DNA from: Candidatus Zixiibacteriota bacterium
GTDB lineage: Bacteria > Zixibacteria > MSB-5A5 > GN15 > JAAZOE01
Reading direction: 5' to 3'
NCBI GenBank assembly: GCA_030668485.1
Contig: DAOUTW010000027.1
Span: 1-54,829 of the forward strand
Length of the DNA: 54,829 nt
The notes beneath the pieces are model-generated. The model was not told the origin of the DNA. It saw only the letters and a list, made by a program, of their open reading frames with translations, and did no database searches. The translations under genes were made by a program, and so were the position numbers. Below, in pieces: positions 22,347 through 37,285 of the stretch; position 1 is the first letter of the stretch, and every line of letters starts with the position of its first letter.

Positions 22347-23753
22347 ATGTCCAAAAAGCCTATAGAACCATTTCGTATAAAAGTGACCGAACCGATCAGT
22401 CTTCCTTCCGAGGAAGAACGGCTGGCCAAAATAGAAGAAGCCGGTTATAACATCTTTCGCGTGAAGGCGGAAGATATTTTTATCGATCTCCTCACCGATT
22501 CCGGCACCGGCGCTATGTCGCAGCATCAATGGGCCGGAATGATGCTGGGGGATGAGTCATACGCCTGCGGACGCAACTGGTATCATTTTGAAGCAACGAT
22601 CAAGAATATTTTCCAGAAACGATTTGTCCTGCCCTGTCATCAGGGACGGGTGGCGGAAAATATCCTGTTTTCCACTATTTTGAAACCGGGAGATTTCGTC
22701 CCCAATAATACTCATTTCGATACCACCCGGGCTAATACCATGCACAAAGGCGGCGTGGCGGTCGACCTGCCCTGCCCGGAGTTGGATGATGAGACCTCCG
22801 ATTTTCCCTTCAAGGGAAATATCGATACCGAGGCGCTAAGCGCCCTTATAAAAAAGGTCGGTCCAGAACGGGTGCCGGTGGTAGTTATGACCGTTACCAA
22901 TAATTCGGTTGGCGGCCTGCCGGTTTCGATGGCGAATATCAAAGAAGTGCGGCAAATTTGTGATCAGCATAATATCCGGTTCTTTTTCGATGCTGCTCGC
23001 TTTGGCGAAAACGCATATTTCATCAAAAAGCATGAGTCCGGTTTTGAAGACCGGACGGTCAAGTCGATTGCGCAGGAAATGTGTGCCTATGCCGACGGCG
23101 TGATGATGTCGGCTAAGAAAGACGGCCTGGCTAATATGGGTGGATTCCTGGCGGTCAACGACGAAGACCTGGCCGGACAATTGAAGGAATTGCTGATTCT
23201 GATTGAGGGCTTTCCGACTTATGGCGGACTGAATGGCCGGGACCTGGAAGCGATATCTATTGGATTACAGGAAGTTCTCAACGAGGATTACCTCGCTTAC
23301 CGTACCGGGCAGATAGAATATTTCGGAATGTTATTGCAACAGGCCGGATGTCCGATTGTCTCGCCGACCGGCGGACATGCGGTCTTTATCGATGCCGGAA
23401 AACTATTGCCGCAAATCGAGCCGGCTCATTTTCCCGGACAGTCGATGACGGTTGAATTCTATCGCCGCGGAGGCGTGCGGGTGGTTGAGATCGGTTCGCT
23501 GATGTTTGGGGGAGAAGACCCCAATACCGGCGAAATACTTTCGCCAAAGAAGGAACTGGTTCGTCTGGCGGTACCTCGCCGGATGTATACTAATACTCAA
23601 TTGGAGTATGTGGCCGAAATCGCAGGAGAAATAGTGAAGGACAGGGAAAAGTTGCGGGGCTACAAGATTACTCAGGAGCCGCAATTCCTCCGTCATTTCA
23701 CCTGCACTATGAAAGAGATGGTTGGCAATCCGGCGAAGGTTCCTTCCGATTAA
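22347..23753 (+). CDS. Tryptophanase / tyrosine phenol-lyase family PLP enzyme
   Basis: The 468-residue protein matches the beta-eliminating lyase family. The PLP-binding lysine lies in MMSAKKDGLANMGGFL (SAKKD is the TnaA form, SGKKD the usual TPL form); LTDSGTGAMSQHQWAGMMLGDESY and LPCHQGRVAENILF are further family blocks. Tryptophanase yields indole, pyruvate and ammonia; TPL yields phenol. I cannot decide the substrate. The C-terminus FLRHFTCTMKEMVGNPA is repeated at 25855-25923, the remnant of a second gene. Its stop codon overlaps the stop of the convergent lipoprotein gene, and it has no terminator of its own. Confidence 0.88.
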   Translation: MSKKPIEPFRIKVTEPISLPSEEERLAKIEEAGYNIFRVKAEDIFIDLLTDSGTGAMSQHQWAGMMLGDESYACGRNWYHFEATIKNIFQKRFVLPCHQGRVAENILFSTILKPGDFVPNNTHFDTTRANTMHKGGVAVDLPCPELDDETSDFPFKGNIDTEALSALIKKVGPERVPVVVMTVTNNSVGGLPVSMANIKEVRQICDQHNIRFFFDAARFGENAYFIKKHESGFEDRTVKSIAQEMCAYADGVMMSAKKDGLANMGGFLAVNDEDLAGQLKELLILIEGFPTYGGLNGRDLEAISIGLQEVLNEDYLAYRTGQIEYFGMLLQQAGCPIVSPTGGHAVFIDAGKLLPQIEPAHFPGQSMTVEFYRRGGVRVVEIGSLMFGGEDPNTGEILSPKKELVRLAVPRRMYTNTQLEYVAEIAGEIVKDREKLRGYKITQEPQFLRHFTCTMKEMVGNPAKVPSD

Positions 23754-25759
23754 TCCCGACGGACAGGTATATCCCATAGGCTAAAGACATAGTAGCCCAC
23801 CCATGCTCGTACGGCTATGAATATCCTATCATCATTCGCATTGAGCGCCAAATTAGTAAAATAAAGCCCCTGGTTCATTGCACCCTTGTTCCGCTCCTCT
23901 ATATATAGGTCGTCACCATCAATAATGCCAATAGAAGGATCCTGGGTGTCGCCAATATGAAAAAGGTCATTGGAATTATTTGAAAATATAGGCAAATACA
24001 CATCGATAAAGCACATGGGTAAATCGAATGATGCGACAAAGTTCAAATTGGCATCAAAGAATCCATTATGTTCATCCCATGAATAGGGACACGCCCAGAT
24101 GAGAGACCCATCATGATTAATTGCCACCTGATGAACTTCCCATCCGGGGTATGTCGTTTTAATTTCTCCTGAGAAGACGTCATATAGTTTAAGCCACCCG
24201 GCAGATGATCCGATACCAAGATATTGTCTGTTTCCTGAAACCGCAAGACACCAGTGTCGATCATCGGCTGTTAACCACTCTACTGTACTTACCTCTCCTG
24301 ATATCAGATCAACCACATATACATTGTAGTTTATAAACACCATGGCTTGATCATTGGCGGTGACTGCCAATTGCCAAAGCTCCGTATACTCCGGCGATCC
24401 CAGATGACTGAGATCAATGGTAGAAACGACTTGAGGCGGAAAGCGTGCAAGATCAATAATTTTGAGGGCAGGATCCAGGCGATTGCTTATAACGAGCCGT
24501 TTGCCATCGGCAGTGAGGTCTGCCAGTGAGGGTTCGTAGCCCACGGGGATGGCATCTACAATCGATTTATGGGTCATGGAGTATTTGTCAATACGCTCCA
24601 TCTCGGTGTTAACGAGATAGATAACATCGCGCACGTCATCAACCACGAGATCGGTAATGATGCCTTCGACCGGTATCTCAGTCCTTAGATTAACCTGCAC
24701 GCGATCGGTAGAGTAGAAATGCCCGCCAAGCCGACCGTAATTGCCAAAAGCATCGGTGCAGGTAATATAATAGGCGTTACCATTATAACAGAATGTAGAA
24801 TCAGGTACATAGATTGCAAAATAAGCGCTATCAATTGGGGCAAAATACTCGCAGTAAAGGCTATCGCCCCGTGAGGGTAAACCTCTCCAGATATAGTAAC
24901 TAATCTGTTTTAACGGCACCCGCGCTTTTCCGATGATCCAGAAGCGTAAAGAATCTCCCTTCTGTACCAGAGTGTCCGATTCAAGGCGTATAGATATCTT
25001 TGGCGGTATATTTTCGGTCAACATTATTTCATGGGGCAGGGTATCCGCGGCTGAGTTCAACCCGGCATCATAAGCAGTTACTTCGAAGGAAAAGCTGATG
25101 TCATAATACGTCGTGTCGGGGAGGAGGAAGACAATCTGAGTATCGATTTTTTGGGGATAGGGCGGGGCAAAAAACAGGGTGTCCCGGGACTCATAGGCAC
25201 CTGAAGTATGGTAGGTTATATAGTAAAGGCCGTTATTGTCCTCAGCGGCCAGACCCACCTTGACATAATCGCCGGGGGCATAGGCAGTGGTGCTGTCATG
25301 GCTTAACGCAAGCGAGGGAGGGATTGTATCGGTCGGTGATATTTCATGAGCATATCTGCTGGAATCATTCCTGATGTCATAGACCAGAATGTTTAATATG
25401 ATGTTTGACTCGACCGGTGCGTCAGGCGGGATTTCGAAAGAAAAGACTTCTTCAATAGCTTCTGGCGGTGGTGAATATACGACAGAATCTTCGATTACCA
25501 CTGCTCCGGAAATAGCATACTTCATTTTAGCTATATTCGAACTACCGGCGCTGGCCACCACATTGATCTCAATACGACTACCGGGTCCGATTTGCTCAGA
25601 GGCGGTTGTGATGGTAATGTTGACTACAGGTGGTGTCATCTGCGGGGTGTCGGGCACGATTCCTTTATCTTGGTTACACCCGCCAATGAGGGCAACAGCG
25701 ATAATAGCCAACAGGAAATGAAACCTGCCGGTATGACGAATCATTCCTAAACACGACAT
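23750..25759 (-). CDS. Propeller lipoprotein (YncE-like), paralogue 1
   Basis: From ATG 25759 (AAGGAG upstream) the product is 669 residues. The signal peptide ends in VALIGGC, a lipobox. Residues about 30-350 are Ig-like strand-rich domains with Asp/Ser/Thr-rich linkers (for example PPSLALSHDSTTAYAPGDYVKV); the last ~300 residues are YncE/WD40-like propeller blades (DVRDVIYLVNTEMERIDKYS, DGKRLVISNRLDPALKIIDL). It is about 40% similar by eye to the two following paralogues but clearly diverged. It should sit in the outer membrane as a binding protein of unknown ligand. Its 3' end overlaps the convergent gene by four bases. Confidence 0.82.
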   Translation of the reverse strand: MSCLGMIRHTGRFHFLLAIIAVALIGGCNQDKGIVPDTPQMTPPVVNITITTASEQIGPGSRIEINVVASAGSSNIAKMKYAISGAVVIEDSVVYSPPPEAIEEVFSFEIPPDAPVESNIILNILVYDIRNDSSRYAHEISPTDTIPPSLALSHDSTTAYAPGDYVKVGLAAEDNNGLYYITYHTSGAYESRDTLFFAPPYPQKIDTQIVFLLPDTTYYDISFSFEVTAYDAGLNSAADTLPHEIMLTENIPPKISIRLESDTLVQKGDSLRFWIIGKARVPLKQISYYIWRGLPSRGDSLYCEYFAPIDSAYFAIYVPDSTFCYNGNAYYITCTDAFGNYGRLGGHFYSTDRVQVNLRTEIPVEGIITDLVVDDVRDVIYLVNTEMERIDKYSMTHKSIVDAIPVGYEPSLADLTADGKRLVISNRLDPALKIIDLARFPPQVVSTIDLSHLGSPEYTELWQLAVTANDQAMVFINYNVYVVDLISGEVSTVEWLTADDRHWCLAVSGNRQYLGIGSSAGWLKLYDVFSGEIKTTYPGWEVHQVAINHDGSLIWACPYSWDEHNGFFDANLNFVASFDLPMCFIDVYLPIFSNNSNDLFHIGDTQDPSIGIIDGDDLYIEERNKGAMNQGLYFTNLALNANDDRIFIAVRAWVGYYVFSLWDIPVRRD

Positions 25760-25784
25760 GATGAATCTCCTTATAATGCTTAAA

Positions 25785-25813
25785 AATTTAGTCCGAATCG
25801 GACATAATGTCAA
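25785..25813 (-). promoter_or_regulatory. Promoter of propeller lipoprotein 1 with a perfect 13-base palindrome
   Basis: On the minus strand TTGACA (25813-25808), 17-base spacer, TAAATT (25790-25785). The spacer contains GTCCGAATCGGAC (25791-25803), a perfect inverted repeat of GTCCGA around one base, in the position of an operator. Confidence 0.55.
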
Positions 25814-25854
25814 CTATAATCAAGATTGCCGTACCGATCCAATTAGGCGGTAAA

Positions 25855-25923
25855 TTTCTGCGGCATTTTACCTGTACAATGGAAGAGATGGTGGGGAATC
25901 CGGCCCGGACGGTATCCAAATAA
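25855..25923 (+). pseudogene. Orphan 3' end of a second tryptophanase-family gene
   Basis: The frame encodes FLRHFTCTMEEMVGNPARTVSK and a stop (TAA 25921-25923), matching the last 22 residues of the intact enzyme at 22347-23753 in 17 positions with identical distance to the stop. Of the 17 identical residues, nine use a different codon, all at third positions, so the copy diverged under protein-level selection before its body was lost. Upstream of 25855 similarity ceases. A strong terminator follows, oriented for this lost gene. Confidence 0.8.
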
Positions 25924-25955
25924 TAATGTCGCGAAGAAGAGTCTATTAAATCGAT

Positions 25956-25990
25956 AAGGGCCGGGATGAGAAGGTCATTCCGGCCTTTTT
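25956..25990 (+). terminator. Terminator left behind by the lost tryptophanase-family gene
   Basis: AAGGGCCGGGATGA (25956-25969) pairs, with G-U steps, with TCATTCCGGCCTTTT (25975-25988), five-base loop, tail TTTTTT. It is oriented plus, opposite to both neighbouring lipoprotein genes, and lies 33 bases after the orphan stop codon. Confidence 0.85.
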
Positions 25991-26007
25991 TCTGTTGCCG
26001 CTAATCG

Positions 26008-28023
26008 CTACCGCGGATCGATGGGGATATCAAAAAAGTAAAAAGCCTCCAGACCTCTCTGACCGGTCATAAAAAGCCGATCTCCGGCAGCATTCGTCTC
26101 CGACCAACAGAGATTCGACATTTCGAAATGGGGGGGCCAGAGAAGATAAATATGCTCAGTCGACCAATCCTCAGTATTGACGTGTGTGAGAGCTTGATAT
26201 GCTTGGAAGTAGTAATTCCGATTATCACGTGAAAATACACCAGGGGCATAAGGATTAAAGGGACCTCCGGTTATGGAATCTATCAGGATAAAGTTATTAT
26301 CGAGAACGCCGGCTGTTTTCCCCCCATTCCAAAGACCGACAATGAAACGTGAACCATCACGGTTACAGGTAAGGTAACTTACACTCCAGTTAATTAATTG
26401 AGTAAAGACCACACCGATACCGGACTGGTACATAATCAACCGGTGATTAGGAGATTCAAATGTATGGATAAGTGCATACTCTGAATTCCCGGAAACCGCG
26501 ATTTCGGCAGGACCTCCCATTCCAATATCAATAGTATCCATTGTATAATTCGTTAAATCGAGGTGAAGTAATAACCATGGATCCTCCCAAAAGGCCAACT
26601 TGATCAAGGCCGTGCCATCGGAAAGAGTTGCTATAACGCTGGGAAATCCCGGTAGCGCAATAGTTGTGTCAACATGGGGTACGGATTCATCAATGTCTAT
26701 TATCGATATTGCAGAATCGAGAAGGTGTGATACCAGAATTGAATTGGTATCAGCGGAAAGGCATAACATTGTGAATCTGAAAGGGACATCAATGGGATCG
26801 AGAAACTGCTGAGATGTTTGCGAATAAATATTGATCCGTCGCTGATACATACCTCCAACATAAACCAGGTCCCGTCGATCATCAACATGCAATAAGACAT
26901 AGGAATTTTCAGGGTATGGGGTCTTGAATATTGTGGCTTGGGAAAAACGGATGCGATCTTCCACCATGATATAACTATTTGCGCCATAATGAGGCCCAGA
27001 ATTGGCGTAGGCAAAAGGTTTGACATTGACAATATTGCTGAAGTAACAGGTATCCGGTACAAGGTACTCAAAATAGGCGCTGTCTATGACATCAAACTCG
27101 CCGGATATGCTATCTCGCAAATCAATAGTAAACCACACTTCATTACGGCCATATTGGAGGCTATACCCGAGGCATGTGAGGGGGGGATTATTGTAGCCGA
27201 CGACCCAGAAACGTAGCGAATCGCCACGCCTCACCCAGTTACTGCCGCCAATGGGATGGACCTCGACCACCGGGCTATTACCAAAAACAATGGAGATATT
27301 ATCTTCCCCTGACACCATGGTGGAATTGAAATTGGCATCCACCGCCTCGGCGGTTATCCAGAAATTGAAACCCAAATAGCTGGGGATGGGAATCGGAATC
27401 GATATGATCGTATCAATTTCGGTGGGGTACGGCTTTTCAAATCTCAGGGTGTCGTTCCAGGCAAAAGCCCCGGCGGTGGAGAAGGCAATATAATAGAGGC
27501 CTTTATTATCGGAGGCTGTAACATGTACCGTGACGATGTCCCGAGGAGCGTAGCCGTGGACGTCATAATCGATTGAGATTACCGGCGGCTGCATATCTAT
27601 GGGATTGAAGCTGTGCACGTATCTTGCATCAGCTCCGTGATCATCGATGGCGATTATTTTTAGGGTCAGAGACGAGTCCAGGTCAAGCCCTATTTCGCCC
27701 GGAACATGAACTACCTCTGATATTTCCATGATTGGCGGTGAGTACTGCAAGGTGTCGGTCTGGCTGGTTTGTCCGGATATCGTATAGATAATTCGCTCAA
27801 TGCCAGCATCGCCTCCCGATACTTGAACTCTAATGCCAATAACGGAAGCGGTTTCCGATTGTTCGGCTGGTCGATTTACTGATACACTTATCAACGGGCC
27901 GGGTTTGGATGATGTCTCGGAAGTAATGTTGTCATTTCTCGAACAACCGCCTATCAGCACCAGGCCAATAACCGGAATTATGGCAAGGAGTGTTAATGAT
28001 CTTGATAGCAGACGCAAATTCAT
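26008..28023 (-). CDS. Propeller lipoprotein, paralogue 2
   Basis: From ATG 28023 (GGGAGGA upstream) the product is 671 residues; the signal peptide ends in VLIGGC. The layout is the same as in paralogue 3: two Ig-like domains, then a YncE-like propeller (RDLVYVGGMYQRRINIYS; DSAISIIDIDESVPHVDT). The codons for SIDYDVHGYAPRDIV to WITAEAVD are almost identical to those of paralogue 3 (254 bases, five differences), whereas the flanks differ much more; gene conversion is likely. It follows paralogue 3 by 16 bases in one operon. Confidence 0.83.
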   Translation of the reverse strand: MNLRLLSRSLTLLAIIPVIGLVLIGGCSRNDNITSETSSKPGPLISVSVNRPAEQSETASVIGIRVQVSGGDAGIERIIYTISGQTSQTDTLQYSPPIMEISEVVHVPGEIGLDLDSSLTLKIIAIDDHGADARYVHSFNPIDMQPPVISIDYDVHGYAPRDIVTVHVTASDNKGLYYIAFSTAGAFAWNDTLRFEKPYPTEIDTIISIPIPIPSYLGFNFWITAEAVDANFNSTMVSGEDNISIVFGNSPVVEVHPIGGSNWVRRGDSLRFWVVGYNNPPLTCLGYSLQYGRNEVWFTIDLRDSISGEFDVIDSAYFEYLVPDTCYFSNIVNVKPFAYANSGPHYGANSYIMVEDRIRFSQATIFKTPYPENSYVLLHVDDRRDLVYVGGMYQRRINIYSQTSQQFLDPIDVPFRFTMLCLSADTNSILVSHLLDSAISIIDIDESVPHVDTTIALPGFPSVIATLSDGTALIKLAFWEDPWLLLHLDLTNYTMDTIDIGMGGPAEIAVSGNSEYALIHTFESPNHRLIMYQSGIGVVFTQLINWSVSYLTCNRDGSRFIVGLWNGGKTAGVLDNNFILIDSITGGPFNPYAPGVFSRDNRNYYFQAYQALTHVNTEDWSTEHIYLLWPPHFEMSNLCWSETNAAGDRLFMTGQRGLEAFYFFDIPIDPR
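27344..27597 (-). repeat. Near-identical tract shared with 29370-29623 (copy A)
   Basis: 254 bases with five differences to copy B. The sharp boundaries within otherwise more divergent paralogous genes suggest gene conversion. Confidence 0.88.
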
Positions 28024-28039
28024 GACAATTCCTCCCGAT

Positions 28040-30055
28040 TTACATTTCCGGATCGATGGGGATATCCCAGAAGAAGAAATCATACCCTTTCATTCCGGTT
28101 ACGAACAATCGATTGTCGGTGGCGTTGGTGGCCAGGTCTATAAAGGACGTTATTTCCAATTCCGGCCGGAATCCGTAATAGCCTTCAATAGTCCAACCGT
28201 TGCTTACGGCACGGCCGATACTTGTCATACCCTTCAGATAAAGATCTTCACCGTTACGGGAAAAGACTGCCGATTCAAAATCCTGATGGCATCCACGACC
28301 GGATATGGAATCAATAAGGCATAAGTCATTATCGAAAATATGGGCCATGAAATTGTGACTCCAAGAACCTGCAAAAAAGCGGGAACCGTCGTGATTACCG
28401 GCAACCCGGTGTACTTCCCAGTCAATTGTTCTGGTCGCTATCACGCCAACATGAGCCTGGTATATAAACAATTGGGAATCAGGAAATGTGTTGGCCGAGA
28501 TGATGGCATACTCTGAATTTCCGGAGGCGGCAATGTATTGAAGATTGTCCATTCCCAGTTCAAGCGAGTCAAGAGAATAATTTGATAAATTCATTCGGAG
28601 TATTGATCCACTGTAATCTTCCGAGTAGGCGAAGATAAGCGCCGTGCCATCGACAAGGGTTGCAATACAGTATGGGCTCAATGGAAGCGAAATGGAAGTG
28701 TCAACATGCGGACTTAAGGCATCAATATTGATAATTGAAACGGATTTGGCTTCCTTATGCAACACGAGCAACGAATTGGTATCGGGGGAAAGACAAAACC
28801 AGTTGCCAATAGCCGGGAGATCTATGACATATGTAAATTCCCGGGCTGCCTGAGAATAAACGTTAATTTGCGGTTGATCTGAGTTACCAACATATACCAA
28901 ATTACGCCGATCATCGACATGAAGAAGGGAATATCTATTGGGGTAAACTACTTCGAAAGTTGTGGCTTGAGAAAAGCGGATACGTCCTTCAACATTGAAG
29001 TAATTTAAATTGCTGGTGTGGCGTCCCTGGGTATCGTAGGCAAAGCTCTTAATGTGTAGATAATTATCGCAATAGCCGGTATCAGGTACAAGATAGGCGA
29101 AATAAGCACTGTCGATGAAGTCAAACTCGCCGTTGATACTGTCGCGCAAATCAATAGTAAACATAAAACCGTTGTTGCCATACTGAAGATTATACCCGAG
29201 GCAGGTAAGAGGGGTGTTGCTATATCCGACCACCCAGAAGCGCAAGGAATCGCCGCGCTTTATCCAATTACCGCCACCGATGGGATGGACCTCGGTCATT
29301 AGCCCGTCAAGTACAATTGTTATCTCATCATCAGGAGAGGCCATGCTGGAATTAAAATTAATGTCCACTGCCTCGGCGGTTATCCAGAAATTGAAACCCA
29401 AATAGCTGGGGATGGGAATCGGAATCGATATGATCGTATCAATTTCGGTGGGGTACGGCTTTTCAAATCTCAGAGTGTCGTTCCAGGCAAAAGCCCCGGC
29501 GGTGGAGAAGGCAATATAATAGAGGCCTTTATTATCGGAGGCCGTAACATGAACCATGACGATGTCCCGAGGAGCGTAGCCGTGGACATCATAATCGATT
29601 GAGATTACCGGCGGCTGCATATCGAAGGGGTAAAAGCTATGCTTAAAGGTGGAACTCAATCCGAACTCATCGATAGCGGTTACTTCCAAGGTGAGGGATG
29701 AATCTTGATTAAGCCCGACCTCATTTAAAGCATGAATTATCTCAGATAATTCCATCATTCCGGGAGAGTATAGCAGGGTGTCCGTCCGAATGGTTTGGCC
29801 CGACATTGAGTAAATGATTTTTTCAATAACGCCATTCCGACCGGAGGCGTTCACTATCAGTGATAATTCTCCGCCCGGCTCAGCCGATACTGATTCAGGG
29901 TCGAGAAAACACTCAAGAGTCGGCGGTTCGATTGGAGTAGGGTGGGAAGTTATCTTATCGTCGCGTGAACATCCGATGGCAATAATGACTAATATCACCA
30001 CGGATAAAATCAATAATCGTTCGATATTCGAAGCTCTTTTATTCTCAACAGTCAA
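28040..30055 (-). CDS. Propeller lipoprotein, paralogue 3
   Basis: I start at TTG 30055, which has GGGAGGGT five bases upstream; the frame continues to an unsupported TTG at 30070. The product is 671 residues with a lipobox ending in IIAIGC. It has two Ig-like domains and a C-terminal YncE-like propeller (RNLVYVGNSDQPQINVYS; AKSVSIINIDALSPHVDT). It is first in the two-gene operon with paralogue 2, with which it shares the converted tract 29370-29623. A promoter lies directly upstream. Role unknown; such proteins can bind glycans, proteins or small ligands at the outer membrane. Confidence 0.83.
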   Translation of the reverse strand: MTVENKRASNIERLLILSVVILVIIAIGCSRDDKITSHPTPIEPPTLECFLDPESVSAEPGGELSLIVNASGRNGVIEKIIYSMSGQTIRTDTLLYSPGMMELSEIIHALNEVGLNQDSSLTLEVTAIDEFGLSSTFKHSFYPFDMQPPVISIDYDVHGYAPRDIVMVHVTASDNKGLYYIAFSTAGAFAWNDTLRFEKPYPTEIDTIISIPIPIPSYLGFNFWITAEAVDINFNSSMASPDDEITIVLDGLMTEVHPIGGGNWIKRGDSLRFWVVGYSNTPLTCLGYNLQYGNNGFMFTIDLRDSINGEFDFIDSAYFAYLVPDTGYCDNYLHIKSFAYDTQGRHTSNLNYFNVEGRIRFSQATTFEVVYPNRYSLLHVDDRRNLVYVGNSDQPQINVYSQAAREFTYVIDLPAIGNWFCLSPDTNSLLVLHKEAKSVSIINIDALSPHVDTSISLPLSPYCIATLVDGTALIFAYSEDYSGSILRMNLSNYSLDSLELGMDNLQYIAASGNSEYAIISANTFPDSQLFIYQAHVGVIATRTIDWEVHRVAGNHDGSRFFAGSWSHNFMAHIFDNDLCLIDSISGRGCHQDFESAVFSRNGEDLYLKGMTSIGRAVSNGWTIEGYYGFRPELEITSFIDLATNATDNRLFVTGMKGYDFFFWDIPIDPEM
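29370..29623 (-). repeat. Near-identical tract shared with 27344-27597 (copy B)
   Basis: Same tract as copy A, encoding the second Ig-like domain of paralogue 3. Confidence 0.88.
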
Positions 30056-30081
30056 CTGTGACCCTCCCAACTATATCTTAT

Positions 30082-30110: not shown

Positions 30111-30371
30111 CAATAACAGGGGGTTGGCAAACCCTGTCAATTGGGCGAAAGATGGGTTGTTTTTGGGTATTTTTCCGGCAAAAGGCTGAAAAATATTTCA
30201 TTTTTTTCCCATAAATAAGTCAGCTTTTATCCGAAAATTGGAGGGAACGGAATTGGCATAAAATTGTTAAACGATTGGGATATATTATGGTACGTTGATT
30301 TGTATTGAATAGGATGATTTCGGCCAAGAATTTGCATTGATCGGGAGGTGAAGGAATATTATGCAAATTAC

Positions 30372-30400
30372 TTGACTTGAATGGCGTAAACGATTAAACT
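30372..30400 (+). promoter_or_regulatory. Candidate promoter of the C25/PorV-like operon
   Basis: TTGACT (30372-30377), 17-base spacer, TAAACT (30395-30400, four of six matches). It would start a leader of about 190 bases that contains the structured RNA. The rest of the 30111-30371 stretch is AT-rich and I see nothing else defined in it. Confidence 0.38.
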
Positions 30401-30450
30401 ATAAAGCTTAAAGAACGTTATACTAATAGAAGGAGATACTATCGAACGTA

Positions 30451-30599
30451 GTTAAAGAGTTTTTGTTGTAGGATGAAACAGCGGAATCGTCCGAAAAGTA
30501 ATATGGGACTTTTCGCAGAACAAAAATGAAGGATTACTCTTTAACAGCGGTTGGATAGTATTTTTGTTTGTCCAGCCGTGTTAGGGCCAGGCCCATAAC
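30451..30599 (+). ncRNA. Structured 5' leader RNA with competing helices (riboswitch-like), class unknown
   Basis: Perfect helix P1 joins GTTAAAGAGT (30451-30460) and ACTCTTTAAC (30536-30545). Inside, TTTTGTT (30461-30467) pairs with AACAAAA (30519-30525), enclosing two hairpins: GGATGA/TCGTCC (30471-30476, 30487-30492) and GAAAAGT/ACTTTTC (30493-30499, 30508-30514). A further hairpin CGGTTGGA/TCCAGCCG (30548-30555, 30571-30578) follows, and its loop carries a second TTTTTGTT (30561-30568) that could instead pair with AACAAAAA. Two mutually exclusive folds are thus possible just before the start codon at 30600, whose own ribosome site is weak. I do not recognise a known riboswitch consensus. 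Confidence 0.5.
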
Positions 30600-33500
30600 A
30601 TGGTTTTTTTTGTGAGACATAGCCTGACATCAATAACAATCCTGACTATCAGTTTTATCGTTGTTGCGTTACTGCCGATGTCGATTGCTATGGCCGGGGC
30701 CGGCCCTCATTATCCGGACTGTGAAGTAAAAATTATATCGGATGAGCATATCATCCTCAAATACAATCCTCAATTATCAGACGATCTCAACACTGTCGGC
30801 AGAACTTGCCTCTATCCGGTCGATGGGCGCGAGGTTCTTGGACGAGTAGTATTAATGGCGGTGCCGTCTGATGGTGAGATATCCTACAGCGTTAATTTTA
30901 GCCGAGCCGGTTCGACTACGCCGACCGCGACAGAAAAGTATATCTCGGCCTCGACGCCGTTGGTGATGCGCGGGACTGCGTTCGATGCCCGCGGCCATCG
31001 CCTTGTACGCCTGGTGATTTTCCCGCAAAGGATGGAAAACGGCAGTCTGGCGGTTTACAAAGATTTTGTCATCGATATTTTTTTGACGGGGTCGAATCGG
31101 ACGGTCGATCTTTCTCCACGTTTGACCCGCCTCGATACGGTTTTGGCGGGAAGTGTGATCAATCCCGGGCAATTTTATCGTTTTGGAGCTGCTCCAAGGC
31201 AGCAGATATTGCGTAAAGAATCGGCCGGTTCTTTCGACGACAGGCATGACTGGATAAGGATTGCGGTAAATGAAAATGGAGTGACGAGAATAAATGGATC
31301 GGCACTGGCGGCGGCCGGTCTCAACCTGACTGACCTTTCTTCCGATTCTATTCGTTTGTACTATGCGGGAGGCAAAACAGCTCCCGAGAGTTTGGCCGAG
31401 CCACAACCGGAATTGTATCAGGTCACGATCAAGGTTGAAGACGGTGGCGATGGCAAATTCGGTTCCGGGGACCATCTTTTGTTTTATGCTCAGGCACCCG
31501 ACCGATTTGAATTTGATGTCCAAACGCTGGTCTATGTGAAAAATTCCTATAACGACGAAAATTACTACTGGTTTACCACCGGAAGTCTCGCCGGTGACGG
31601 TCCTGAACGCTGGTCGATTATCGATGGCGGACTTAACGGTACTCCCAATCTGATAGTCTCGTCGGCTCGGCATATGATGAGAATCGAGCAGGAGAACCTG
31701 AGTAAGATTGAAGGCGACGGCCGGGTTCGCAATTATTTTGACTGGTTCTGGTCCGATGAGCGGGAAGAAACGATTGCGTTAAATCTTCCCAATCTGGTAC
31801 CCGGCGATTCGATTGATATTTTCATGGAAGCCTTCAGCAGTTATGGCTCATCGACCATATCGATCAACGGCACCCCGATGAATAAAGCGATGATAGACAA
31901 TACATATTTTCGTTTCTGGGATAACACCGGCGCAGCCGTAAGCGGATTAAATAATCTGAGAATAAATCTTTATCATGTCAGTGGCCAGTACCTCGATTAT
32001 CTCGACATCGATTATCAGATGTATCTTAAAACATCCGGACCGCAGATAACTTTTAATTCTCGCGGATACTCCGGTATTGTTCGATATTCCGTAACCGGGT
32101 ATACACCGTCCCATTATGTGCTCAACATCACCGATCCCGATTCAGTCAGCCTTGTCAGCGATGTGGAGATAATGAGCGATACGGCCCGCTTTCAGCGGCC
32201 CGAATCGAGCGCCAGAGTTTCGCGATACCTGATCTATTCTTCAAATTCCCTACTGTCGCCGGCGGCGGTCGAGGCGATCGATCCCGGCAACCTGCGTCAG
32301 GACCTGACCCAGTATGATCAGATTGTCATCGCTCCGCAGAAATTCATCGGAGCAATGGCGGAATACGCCGTTTATCGTTATGAAAACGGCGAGTACCGGA
32401 TCAAGCTGGTGGCGGTGGAGGATATCTATAACGGCTTCGGTTATGGGATGTTATCGCCGATGGCGATTCGCAATTACTTGAAATTCGCTTATGAAAATTA
32501 CAACGACCCGGCGCCTTTTTCGGTTTTGCTGGTCGGGGACGGCTGTTATGATTTCCTAAATAACACCGGACATAATGCGGTTTCGTATATCCCTCCGTTT
32601 ATCTGGTCTCAAGAATATTCTGCGGGCGACGACAACTATGTTTATTTCGACACCCTCAATCTTCTTGATTCCGACAGCAGTTATATTTATGAATCTGACC
32701 GGGGCTGGGATATGATGGTTGCCCGCTGGCCGGTTCGCACCAAGGCAGAGATCGCCGCTCATATCGAGGCGATTAGGAATTACGAGTCATCCACCAGCCA
32801 GGGAAACTGGCGTACGCGGATTACTTATGTGGCCGATGATGAGTTCAAAGGGCAGATCACCAATGAAATCATCCATACTGCCATGGCCGAAACTCTTGCC
32901 GTTTTTCACACGCCGCCGGAATTTATCCATCAGAAAATATATGCGACTGATTATCCCTTCGCCTCCAACGGCGAAAAACCGACCGTCAATAATGCTGTCG
33001 TCAAAGCCATTAATGACGGCACCCTGATCCTAAATTATATCGGCCACGGTTCGCCCGATGTGTGGGCCGACGAGCATATTTTGAAAAAGTCGGTCGATCT
33101 GGGCCGGATGAACAATGAAGATAAGCTGGCAGTAGTAATTGCCGGTTCTTGTTCCATCGGGTTTTTCGATGATCCTGCCAAGGAAGGGATGGCGGAGATA
33201 TTGTTCCGCCAGCAGGGCGGGGCGATCGAAACGGTTTCGGCCACCAGACTGGTTTATGCCACCGACAATGCGATTTTCAATTATGATTTATATGAGGCTC
33301 TTTTCGGAAACAATTGCAATGTATCCGAGGCGGTATATACGGCCAAGGTTATGCATCAATATAATTTTGACCGTTCATTGATCAAGAATGACCGGACCTA
33401 TGTCGTATTCGGCGATCCTCTGGGCCGTTTCGGACTGCCTGAATACCGGCTGCAATTCAATCTCACGTCGGACAGCGTTCTGACACCTCTGGACTATTTC

Positions 33501-34490
33501 AGTTTTTCGGGTACCGTCACCGATCTGGATGGAAATCCCAAAGCGGTAAGCGGCGAAATTGAGATCACCGCCTTTGATTCCCATATTATGCGGAATCACG
33601 AATTGGGTATCAGCTATTCTCTCGGTGGTCCGGCTATTTTCAGGGGAACAGTGGTGGTTGAATCCGGTTCTTTTGAAGGAGGATTCATAGTTCCTCTGGA
33701 TATAGATTACGGCGCTGATGCCGCGTACCTGATCGGTTATGGAGCCTTCGGCGCCACCTCCGCGATGGGGGGAGTCGATTCTCTGTCCATTGCCCTAAGT
33801 GCCGTATCGACTGAGGATAATAACGGCCCCGAGATAAACTATCTGGTCGAAGATATTCCCGATTTTGTTTCCGGCGATCAGGTGTCTTCCAACGCCACGG
33901 TGATACTGCAATTGAATGATGAGTCGGGTATCAACCTGACTGGCGGGATGGGGCACCGGATTGAGCTGGTGATAGACGATGATAACAATTCGACCATGAA
34001 CCTGACCGATGAATTTTCGTATAATTCCGGCAGTTATCGGGACGGCGAGTTGCAGTTTTCTCTACCTGATCTTACGCCCGAACTGCACCGTTTCAAAATC
34101 CGGGCCTGGGATAATGCCAACAATCCGGCCACCGTCGAATTTGAGGCTACGCCTACTCAAGAGAGCCGAATAGCTCTTTATGATGTAATGAATTACCCGA
34201 ACCCGATGGAAGAGAGTACGGAGTTTTTCTTCAACCTGACCGAATCAGCCGAATGGGTTGAACTTCAGATATTTACCCTGGCCGGAAGGATGATAAAAGA
34301 TTTTCGCGCCGACAACCTGTCCATGGGCAAGAATCGCCGATTTAACTGGGACGGGCGGGATTTGGACGGCGACCGGATCGCCCAGGGAGTATATCTATAT
34401 AAAATTACGGCTAAAGGACGTCTTGCCGCGAATACAGGATCTGCCGATAATATGGCAGAGGTCTTCGGCAAGCTGATCTTGTTGAACTGA
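30600..34490 (+). CDS. PorU-like C25 (gingipain-family) cysteine protease with FlgD-like C-terminal domain
   Basis: The 1296-residue protein has a signal peptide (about residues 1-32), a long N-terminal region, and a C25 peptidase domain near residues 590-960: catalytic His816 in NYIGHGSP and Cys851 in VIAGSCSIGFF, 35 residues apart as in gingipains and PorU. The C-terminus has NYPNPMEEST, then a FlgD-Ig-like segment (GRMIKDF, FNWDGRDLDG, GVYLYKI), the type seen in type IX cargo and in PorU itself. PorU is the sortase that removes sorting domains and attaches cargo to a lipid. Being next to a PorV-like gene supports a PorU-like role, but a secreted C25 protease is the alternative. First gene of the operon; weak ribosome site. 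Confidence 0.85.
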   Translation: MVFFVRHSLTSITILTISFIVVALLPMSIAMAGAGPHYPDCEVKIISDEHIILKYNPQLSDDLNTVGRTCLYPVDGREVLGRVVLMAVPSDGEISYSVNFSRAGSTTPTATEKYISASTPLVMRGTAFDARGHRLVRLVIFPQRMENGSLAVYKDFVIDIFLTGSNRTVDLSPRLTRLDTVLAGSVINPGQFYRFGAAPRQQILRKESAGSFDDRHDWIRIAVNENGVTRINGSALAAAGLNLTDLSSDSIRLYYAGGKTAPESLAEPQPELYQVTIKVEDGGDGKFGSGDHLLFYAQAPDRFEFDVQTLVYVKNSYNDENYYWFTTGSLAGDGPERWSIIDGGLNGTPNLIVSSARHMMRIEQENLSKIEGDGRVRNYFDWFWSDEREETIALNLPNLVPGDSIDIFMEAFSSYGSSTISINGTPMNKAMIDNTYFRFWDNTGAAVSGLNNLRINLYHVSGQYLDYLDIDYQMYLKTSGPQITFNSRGYSGIVRYSVTGYTPSHYVLNITDPDSVSLVSDVEIMSDTARFQRPESSARVSRYLIYSSNSLLSPAAVEAIDPGNLRQDLTQYDQIVIAPQKFIGAMAEYAVYRYENGEYRIKLVAVEDIYNGFGYGMLSPMAIRNYLKFAYENYNDPAPFSVLLVGDGCYDFLNNTGHNAVSYIPPFIWSQEYSAGDDNYVYFDTLNLLDSDSSYIYESDRGWDMMVARWPVRTKAEIAAHIEAIRNYESSTSQGNWRTRITYVADDEFKGQITNEIIHTAMAETLAVFHTPPEFIHQKIYATDYPFASNGEKPTVNNAVVKAINDGTLILNYIGHGSPDVWADEHILKKSVDLGRMNNEDKLAVVIAGSCSIGFFDDPAKEGMAEILFRQQGGAIETVSATRLVYATDNAIFNYDLYEALFGNNCNVSEAVYTAKVMHQYNFDRSLIKNDRTYVVFGDPLGRFGLPEYRLQFNLTSDSVLTPLDYFSFSGTVTDLDGNPKAVSGEIEITAFDSHIMRNHELGISYSLGGPAIFRGTVVVESGSFEGGFIVPLDIDYGADAAYLIGYGAFGATSAMGGVDSLSIALSAVSTEDNNGPEINYLVEDIPDFVSGDQVSSNATVILQLNDESGINLTGGMGHRIELVIDDDNNSTMNLTDEFSYNSGSYRDGELQFSLPDLTPELHRFKIRAWDNANNPATVEFEATPTQESRIALYDVMNYPNPMEESTEFFFNLTESAEWVELQIFTLAGRMIKDFRADNLSMGKNRRFNWDGRDLDGDRIAQGVYLYKITAKGRLAANTGSADNMAEVFGKLILLN

Positions 34491-34531
34491 GAAATGAGTG
34501 TTTTGATACTAAATGTTTGGAGAATGAAGTC

Positions 34532-37285
34532 ATGAAACAGATTCCTGTCCTAACCATCCTCATAACTTTGCTTATTCTTGTCACCGCCTCTACCGCAGGC
34601 GCGGTGTCGAATGCCGCTGTTTTATACTTGCGGGTTGCCGCCGGTGCACGCCCTGCCGGTATGGGAGAAGCATTCGTATCCATCGCCGATGATGCGGCCG
34701 CGACCTTCTGGAATCCCGCCGGTTTGGGAAACGCCCCGATTGCAGGCAAACTCGAGACGAAGAAGCTGCCGGAACGTTTTGGGGAGATCACCGACGTCGT
34801 GACCATAAAATCCTACAATAATAACATCGAAACCTGGGCCATTGCCGGTGATGAACTGATTATGTATGATGGCGTGACGTGGAACCGGGGACGTATTTAC
34901 ATGACCTCCTCCGATCAAAATCTCCATGATTTTCTCCGTACAATTCTGGATATCGAGGACGAGGGAAAAATGGATATGATGGCCAGGCGGGTTGTTCGGG
35001 CCAACAGTGGTGTATCCAATGAAGAGATGGCCTCCTTTGTCGATATGGTGGCGGCCAATATTCCCGAAGATTATAAGGAAAAGGATGAACTCAGACGAGG
35101 CCTGGATACTCTTCAATCCGGTTATAATATGTGTCTTCTCAATGATCAGCGTTTCAGAGGTCTTCAGAAAAAGCTGAAAGATATGATGAAGGACAGCCTG
35201 GTTGAAAATTCAGAATTGGACAAAATTACATTTTCACTCGAACAGGCTGTTTTGCGTTTTCTCCCAAGTCGGCTGATGGTACCGTATGCGGCGGCAATCG
35301 GCGGCCGGATGTTGACCCTGTCCAGCACCGGAACTTATCTGTGGGTGGGAACCGATTATGGTCTGTATCGACGTTCGGCGATGACGTGGGCCCGGTATAC
35401 CACCGAACACGGGCTACCCTCGGATACCATATTGGACCTCGATAGCAAAGAAGAACATCTCCTGATCGGGACCGGAACCGGTGTTGCCGAATATTCCAAA
35501 GGTACGTTTAAAAGTTTTGACAATCTCCCCCATGCGCCCGCAACGGCAGTATCTCACGGTGCATTAAACCAGAATTATGCCGTTATCGGCGGTATCATGT
35601 ATCGTTTTGATGGCCAGACCTGGCAGGAAAGTTTCCGCTATACTGTGCGCATTGACGATACTATCGAAAAAATAGTCAAGCGGATCGCAATTTATCATAC
35701 TCAGGCCGAGTATGAATATCTGACCGGCCGTATAAAAGTACTCAACCAGAGTCTTGTTTCGGCCGCCGAGGTTGTGAATACCGAGGAACTGTCGGATCCG
35801 ACGGCTGAGATTGCAACCGGCGATTCGGCTGCTGTGGAAGCGGCTGAAGCAGTTGCCGAGGAAGTCATCGGCGAACCGGAAACCCCGGCGATTACAGACG
35901 ACGCCGGAGAAGAGGTTGTCGATGAGATTCCGGTTGAAGTTGAAGAGTCAACTTCCTGGCTGGTTCAGGGTACTGTGATTCAATTGCCGTACAGTCCTAT
36001 CTTCCGCTTTGATGTCACCGCCCTCTATGCCGATGATGTGACTGGAAATGTCTGGGTGGGAACAACGAGTGGTTTGCTGCTCTTCAACGGTCAGACCTGG
36101 AGAAAATACGGATACGATACTTTTATCGTTCCTCGTCCCGATTCGACCGGAACGGTTGTTTCAATGACGGCCAAGGATATTGCCCGCGAACAATTACCTT
36201 ATGGCGATTCAGCTCGAATCGAAGCTCTGGCTGAAAATATCGACGACTACAATGATTTACACGGGCAGTCGGCAACTTCCGGCCAGACGGTTTTTGTCTA
36301 CAATCATAATACCGGCTCCGAAATTCGCACGATCGGATCGGTGTTCGGCGAATTATATGTCGGAACCAGATACAGTCTGGAAAAATACAATTCCGGGTGG
36401 TGGGAGCCGTCCGAATTAGGGCATCTTGATCGACAGCCGTTTGTCGGTATCTATGACTTTGACGGTCAGGGCTACTATGTTGCATCTCGCGGAATAGGTA
36501 TAGAAGCCAAGGGTAAACGAGAGTTTATCATGATGTTTGTAAAGTGGCTGCCGACTCTCAATTTGGATATGTATTACGGATTCATTTCATATGTTCATCA
36601 TGCCCGCGGACTGGGCACTTTTGGAATAAGCGGCATTTACCTCAGTTACGGTTCCATAGCCTTTACCGATGCGGAAGGGCAGCCGCTTGGTGAGGAGAAT
36701 CCATTTGAATTTTCACTGGCACTGTCTTATGGAACGGCGGTGAATTCCAGATTATCGCTGGGTGGTTCGGTAAAGGCAATCCATTCTCATTTGTCCAGTA
36801 TCGGCGCCGGAAAAGAGGAGGGCAGCGGTATAGCCTGGGCCTTTGCCGTTGACGCCGGTATTTTGTTCAAGATCACCAGGCGGTTGCAATTGGGTACCGC
36901 TGTTACCAATCTCGGCCCGAACATCTCCTATATTGATGCCGCTCAGTCCGACCCGTTGCCGCGTAACCTGGCTTTGGGATTGTCATACCGTCTCTGGGAC
37001 TCGCCATACAACAGCCTGATTGTTCAGACTGAAATGAATGAAATGCTTACCACGCCGTATAGGATTAGAAACGCTACCTATCATTTCGGCGCCGAATATT
37101 GGTATGCCAGGTTCATCGCCTTAAGGGCGGGATATAAACACGATGATGAAGGCGAGGTCAAACATTTGACGTTTGGCGCCAGCCTGCAATACGAAATGGT
37201 CCGTTTTGATCTGGCCTATGTGCCGTCATCGGTCGATTCACCGTTGGCTAACACCCTGCGTATTGCCTTTAGCCTCGGCTTTTAG
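34532..37285 (+). CDS. PorV-like outer membrane barrel with inserted PorZ-like beta-propeller
   Basis: From ATG 34532 the product is 917 residues with a signal peptide. Residues about 28-68 (RVAAGARPAGMGEAFVSIAD, then TFWNPAGLG) are the start of PorV/PorQ (UPF0164) barrels. The barrel resumes around residue 660 (LNLDMYYGFISYVHHARGLG, ... GGSVKAIHSHLSS, LQLGTAVTNLGPNI) to the end. Between lie ~560 residues containing two-component-regulator-type propeller blades (LWVGTDYGLYRR, HGLPSDTILDLDS, VWVGTTSGLLLFNGQTW, LYVGTRYSLEKY) and an acidic Glu-rich linker. PorZ of the type IX attachment complex is made of such blades, so one chain may combine PorV and PorZ roles. 41 bases after the C25 gene. Confidence 0.82.
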   Translation: MKQIPVLTILITLLILVTASTAGAVSNAAVLYLRVAAGARPAGMGEAFVSIADDAAATFWNPAGLGNAPIAGKLETKKLPERFGEITDVVTIKSYNNNIETWAIAGDELIMYDGVTWNRGRIYMTSSDQNLHDFLRTILDIEDEGKMDMMARRVVRANSGVSNEEMASFVDMVAANIPEDYKEKDELRRGLDTLQSGYNMCLLNDQRFRGLQKKLKDMMKDSLVENSELDKITFSLEQAVLRFLPSRLMVPYAAAIGGRMLTLSSTGTYLWVGTDYGLYRRSAMTWARYTTEHGLPSDTILDLDSKEEHLLIGTGTGVAEYSKGTFKSFDNLPHAPATAVSHGALNQNYAVIGGIMYRFDGQTWQESFRYTVRIDDTIEKIVKRIAIYHTQAEYEYLTGRIKVLNQSLVSAAEVVNTEELSDPTAEIATGDSAAVEAAEAVAEEVIGEPETPAITDDAGEEVVDEIPVEVEESTSWLVQGTVIQLPYSPIFRFDVTALYADDVTGNVWVGTTSGLLLFNGQTWRKYGYDTFIVPRPDSTGTVVSMTAKDIAREQLPYGDSARIEALAENIDDYNDLHGQSATSGQTVFVYNHNTGSEIRTIGSVFGELYVGTRYSLEKYNSGWWEPSELGHLDRQPFVGIYDFDGQGYYVASRGIGIEAKGKREFIMMFVKWLPTLNLDMYYGFISYVHHARGLGTFGISGIYLSYGSIAFTDAEGQPLGEENPFEFSLALSYGTAVNSRLSLGGSVKAIHSHLSSIGAGKEEGSGIAWAFAVDAGILFKITRRLQLGTAVTNLGPNISYIDAAQSDPLPRNLALGLSYRLWDSPYNSLIVQTEMNEMLTTPYRIRNATYHFGAEYWYARFIALRAGYKHDDEGEVKHLTFGASLQYEMVRFDLAYVPSSVDSPLANTLRIAFSLGF

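Follow-up and report, generated by a model that had tools for sequence, protein, structure and literature searches.

A structured leader RNA with attenuator anatomy, apparently a new family, upstream of the type IX sortase gene porU in Zixibacteria

The porU locus and its promoters

The DNA analysed here (the window) is a stretch of 54,829 nt, contig DAOUTW010000027.1 of assembly GCA_030668485.1, whose nearest named relatives are metagenome bins of Zixibacteria (Candidatus Zixiibacteriota, also called GN15); in the family labels of our genome search (f1 to f18), it belongs to f1. An open reading frame on the plus strand (30600-34490) encodes a PorU-type type IX sortase (NF033707, 646 bits against a cut-off of 420). 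Downstream of porU, and on the same strand, lie genes for a PorV-family protein, a T9SS M6-like protein, two DUF5683 proteins, an NHL propeller and an Omp85 protein, and it is plausible that porU and these genes form one operon under the leader described below. The 922-aa protein encoded at 34517-37285 has its PorV match confined to the C-terminal third, with a weak PorV2-type match near the N-terminus and a long unmatched stretch between the two. Divergent from porU, on the minus strand (23750-30070), are three genes in a row, encoding proteins of 676-691 aa that have weak matches to beta-propellers only.

The start codon of porU is likely the GTG at 30612 (giving a plus-strand coding region of 30612-34490) rather than the ATG at 30600, which falls within a terminator-like hairpin that we term T: in three f1 relatives (G002, G005 and G006, each with six U after T), this ATG meets an in-frame stop at once, so translation must begin after the U-tract.

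Two types of promoter precede the leader on the plus strand. The upstream one, of sigma-54 type (TTTCGGCCAAGAATTTGCATT, 30318-30338), has a conserved GG-N10-GC (GG at 30322-30323, GC at 30334-30335), and in 43 of the 49 leaders of f1, f3, f4 and f5, including all seven of f1, such a site precedes the TTGAC box by 25-69 nt, against 17 of 2941 control windows (0.6%); RpoN is encoded in the genome of the window and in 30 of the 31 genomes searched. The downstream one, of sigma-70 type (TTGACT-17-TAAACT, 30372-30400), came from a promoter scan, is conserved in the seven f1 leaders and can be read in other families. Transcription from it is expected to start near 30407. With both sites present, tandem control of porU by sigma-54 and sigma-70 is possible. 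A transcription start downstream of 30545, which the preliminary description of this region had named among the findings that would speak against its leader, is unlikely because both the conserved TTGAC box (30372) and the sigma-54-type site (30322/30334) are upstream of the fold. In f3 and f4 leaders (e.g., L019, L027 and L031), the motif GGAACTT is conserved in the spacer of the TTGACA promoter, just before the -10 hexamer.

Helices of the leader and their overlaps

The preliminary description placed an undescribed structured leader at 30451-30599, closed by a perfect 10-base helix. The structured region is larger than this: It begins at an AAGGAG element (30430), continues with a long helix (P0/P1), a hairpin (H2) and then hairpin T with its tract of eight U, and reaches the GTG at 30612, amounting to about 180 bases of folded RNA directly 5' of porU. 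The predicted fold of the leader region reaches -53.9 kcal/mol, compared with a mean of -38.1 for shuffled sequences (z = -3.9), and is more stable than all 200 dinucleotide shuffles.

All four pairings reported earlier are present, namely the 10-base helix (30451-30460 with 30536-30545), two pairings of eight and nine bases (30460-30467 with 30519-30526, and 30519-30527 with 30560-30568) and an 8-base hairpin (30492-30499 with 30508-30515). The 10-base helix is, however, only the inner part of the 24-pair helix P0/P1 (30436-30460 with 30536-30561), which consists of the P0 5' arm (30436-30448), the P1 5' arm (30449-30460, including GTTAAAGAGT), the P1 3' arm (30536-30547, including ACTCTTTAAC) and the P0 3' arm (30548-30561). 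In the f1 alignment, 91% of P0/P1 cells are paired and seven pairs have changed on both sides; none of 500 shuffles matched the covariation score, and sliding the arms against each other abolishes it. Arms also pair better with their own partner than with one swapped in from another species, both in f1 (p = 0.00025) and in f4 (p < 5e-5) and the deeper families (p = 0.001), with a weaker result in f3 (p = 0.04), where P1 is nearly invariant; these permutation p values ignore the relatedness of the species. The domain that P1 encloses (30461-30535), which contains both internal hairpins of the preliminary description, was searched for conservation in the leader alignments, and none was found in either sequence or length.

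At the foot of P0, beside the consensus helix and outside of it, is the Shine-Dalgarno-like AAGGAG (30430-30435), about 180 nt 5' of the porU start codon. Its AGGAG is invariant in the seven f1 leaders, and a motif of the AAGGAG type occurs in nearly all leaders of the other families, 4-10 nt before AU(A/C).

Hairpin H2 (30548-30578) pairs 30548-30557 with 30569-30578. Although 97% of its cells are paired in f1, the two pairs that have changed on both sides are both in G004, and H2 covariation taken by itself, which rests on this one species, shows no excess over shuffles among the f1 leaders. The same bases of G004 that compensate in H2 disrupt three pairs of P0, indicating that H2 has been retained there at a point where the two folds conflict. 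In f3, H2 is present in variant form (UUCGAC/GUCGAA in L026 against GUCGGC/GCCGGG in L016). Conservation of the H2 loop was looked for in the f1 leaders and not found.

Hairpin T (30576-30603) reads CCGUGUUAGGGCC-AGG-CCCAUAACAUGG and is followed by eight U (30604-30611). Hairpin and U-tract (U6 to U8) stand between the promoter and porU in all f1 leaders, and the pairs of T change but persist across families, its base reading CCGUGU/ACAUGG, CCGAGU/ACUCGG or CCGGGU/ACCCGG, with a fourth pair that is U-A, A-U or G-C in different leaders. The sequence after T is U-rich in f3 and f8-f12, and the tract is short or absent in f4. A simple terminator scan of the window did not list T, probably owing to its bulge.

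These helices cannot all coexist. P0 and H2 share 30548-30557, the first ten bases of the P0 3' arm doubling as the H2 5' arm, and are thus mutually exclusive, while H2 and T share the CCG at 30576-30578, that is, the pairs of T adjoining the U-tract. In f1 the overlap of H2 with T amounts to no more than three pairs, and in f9 P0 and H2 are without clear overlap. In all seven f1 species, the predicted energy of P0/P1 together with T is 7-16 kcal/mol lower than that of the H2 fold; H2 is predicted to be rare in the full RNA of these species and, in six of the seven, also in an RNA ending before the T 3' arm. The earlier proposal of two competing folds stands for the P0 3' arm against the H2 5' arm, but not for the elements to which it was originally assigned: AACAAAAA was supposed to choose between two T-rich partners, and although its pairs (such as AACAAAAA/TTTTTGTT) exist, they are not conserved, the best interior or loop match in six relatives being at differing places and often weak.

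Distribution across Zixibacteria and the f4 variant

The element is found directly before porU in all six other f1 genomes, and a search for further copies in the genome of the window returned none. Much of the same plan is readable upstream of porU in f3, f4, f5 and f8-f12, where it comprises TTGACA-17-TATAAT, GGAG, UAU(C/A)G, GUUAAAGG, a variable domain, the P1 3' arm, T and porU. A covariance model built from f1 leaders only (R1) matches, where they would be expected, the leaders of f3, f4 and f8-f12 and, with weak scores, those of f14; at the porU loci of KSB1, Marinimicrobia and other outgroups it gave nothing convincing. The leaders come close to being palindromes, and R1 picks up antisense strands as well, at about 1e-5, so that position and the result of a second model outweigh its weak E-values. 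That model, R2, was trained on 15 leaders of f4; in a run on 132 genomes it detects a single copy in each of 46, among them, outside its training set, nine genomes of f3 (E down to 9e-9) and one of f8 (2e-5). The leader adjoins porU in every genome that has both on one contig, a few genomes having the two on different contigs or not being cross-checked. When 22 leaders were aligned to R1, 89.0% of cells paired, a figure that is favoured by fitting the alignment to the model; none of 500 shuffles exceeded 79.0%.

In f2 and several deeper families (parts of f13-f18), the leader was not recognised, and may be absent or too diverged; a regular-expression search for P1 across families missed many variants, and absence from it is not evidence. 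The comparison of homologous leaders by covariance model, as suggested in the preliminary description, recovered them at porU in many other families of Zixibacteria, and the helices are kept in relatives, with compensatory changes. A homologous porU leader is present in most branches of Zixibacteria that can be checked, its helices supported by paired base changes. We therefore hold with high confidence that the sequence before porU is a conserved structured leader. With its phylum-wide porU-linked homologues, its compensatory pairs and the lack of an Rfam match, the original call of an undescribed structured leader ahead of a PorU-like operon is borne out, and it is a real, apparently new family of cis-acting RNA with the anatomy of an attenuator.

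The leaders of f4 differ at their 3' end: T ends 0-8 nt before the AUG and the long U-tract is absent. On account of this decayed tract and this spacing, T in f4 more likely blocks translation than terminates transcription. In addition, the 5' end of the f4 leader (GGUUUAUACAG) pairs with nucleotides 13-23 of porU (CUGUAUAAAUC), own partners exceeding swapped ones (p = 5e-5, for a contact that had been spotted by eye before testing), with matched changes in L032, L133, L134 and L098. Across f4 loci (L132, L133, L134, L098, L032 and others), this complementarity to porU codons 5-8 occupies a fixed place. A restricted test for such a clamp in f1 and f3 found none, leaving it specific to f4, and a free duplex search gave noise. 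The bases CGGCCC, which immediately precede the P1 3' arm, could form a pseudoknot with GGGCCG in T; a test of this candidate gave p = 5e-5 in f4 but no support in f1. At loci of f3, f4 and deeper families (e.g., L089, L103, L176 and L190), a pairing of the P1 flank with T is suggestive only.

Proposed attenuation and alternative readings

Because P0 and H2 share one strand, and H2 and T another, the arrangement has the logic of an anti-antiterminator (P0/P1), an antiterminator (H2) and a terminator (T), and we consider it moderately probable that the leader is a cis-acting attenuator of the porU operon. When P0/P1 is formed, H2 would be blocked and T could zip fully against its U-tract, such that transcription would stop before porU; when the P0 5' arm is held open, H2 would form and capture the CCG that T needs at its base, letting transcription continue. 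In favour of this reading are the compensatory changes in P0/P1 and H2, the pairing kept across the phylum, the single copy next to porU, the recognition of other families' leaders by both models, the U-tract after T in f1, f3 and f8-f12, the fold energies of the alternatives and the position of both promoters. Against it weigh the H2 covariation, confined to one f1 species and no stronger than in shuffles, the short overlap of H2 with T, the predicted rarity of H2, the unclear overlap in f9 and the missing U-tract of f4. Given the predicted advantage of P0/P1 plus T, the resting state would be OFF, with termination by default, and the trigger would have to hold P0 open. Judged only by position, the likeliest opener would be a ribosome or an RNA-binding protein on the AAGGAG at the foot of P0.

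An anti-antiterminator, an antiterminator and a terminator are likewise combined in trp-type leaders and in the expression platforms of many riboswitches. The porU leader resembles them in the order of its elements, its mutually exclusive helices and a terminator just before the gene, but differs in having no conserved leader peptide or recognised aptamer, in an H2 that overlaps the base of T only, and in a start codon directly after the U-tract. In RAT/LicT-type protein-dependent antiterminators, a hairpin overlaps the base of the terminator and competes with it, as H2 does here, whereas the porU leader has an additional, far longer helix as a competitor of that hairpin.

Alternatively, the leader might act in translation, with AAGGAG as the Shine-Dalgarno sequence of porU some 180 nt away and the folded RNA either bringing it near the start codon or hiding both. 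The GTG of porU has no local Shine-Dalgarno sequence, which 21 of the 36 genes in the window possess (by a lax search), and the invariance of AAGGAG in f1 agrees with such a split site, as do the f4 leaders, through both the closeness of T to the AUG and the pairing of their 5' end with porU. Phage T4 gene 38 has a hairpin-bridged site of this kind, similar in that folded RNA splits a Shine-Dalgarno-like motif from the start codon; in the porU leader, however, the two are about 180 nt apart, the interval holds several helices, and in most families it includes a terminator. The start codons of f8-f12 are some 20-40 nt past a clean terminator, the U6 to U8 after T suits termination better, and f1 and f3 lack the clamp into the coding sequence, all of which makes a split site unlikely.

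A ligand-binding riboswitch, with its aptamer in the P0/P1 domain, would account for the mutually exclusive folds, for a terminator at the right place and for the possible pseudoknot of f3 and f4, and Rfam riboswitches are similarly structured 5' leaders with alternative folds. Yet the enclosed domain, variable in sequence and length, offers no conserved aptamer core, the leader is single-copy and confined to one gene context, and a scan of 30300-30720 against Rfam yielded no match at E <= 5; a scan of 11 other leaders also yielded no credible match. The riboswitch-like appearance first attributed to this region therefore has no support so far in the strict sense of a ligand, and we regard this reading as quite improbable.

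Still less probable is a stand-alone small RNA, 6S-like or trans-acting, that ends at T and precedes porU by chance. It would have its own promoter, a long closing helix and a terminator within about 200 nt, and a search of 13 of these genomes detected no 6S gene; 6S RNA (RF00013) shares the length and the long closing helix round a variable interior. But RF00013 has no match in the leader or in the genomes searched, linkage to porU is strict, and the porU start codon directly follows T in f1, f3 and f4, which makes the element part of the porU mRNA. Attenuation through a leader peptide, from a tiny reading frame beginning at AUC or AUA 4-10 nt after AAGGAG, is hardly credible, even though the distance from the motif to AU(A/C)G is conserved: every start codon would be non-canonical, neither frame nor length nor peptide is conserved, and a stop arrives within 16 codons in 97% of cases, compared with 95% in another frame, revealing no frame preference.

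Beyond the proposed attenuator, a broader and more tentative possibility is that of an RNA switch devoted to type IX secretion throughout the phylum, single-copy and always at porU, which would sense translation or the state of the envelope and whose output hairpin would have shifted from a terminator (f1 and f8-f12) to a start-codon clamp reaching into the coding sequence (f4). Our search of the open-access literature, covering Zixibacteria or PorU together with riboswitch, leader RNA or sigma-54, and type IX secretion together with attenuation, returned no description of such a leader, nor any report of type IX secretion genes being controlled at the RNA level. Zixibacteria are known mostly from metagenome bins, and a covarying, single-copy porU leader provides both a defined RNA family to curate and a handle on the control of surface secretion in this phylum, in which one leader has apparently changed from transcriptional to translational output.
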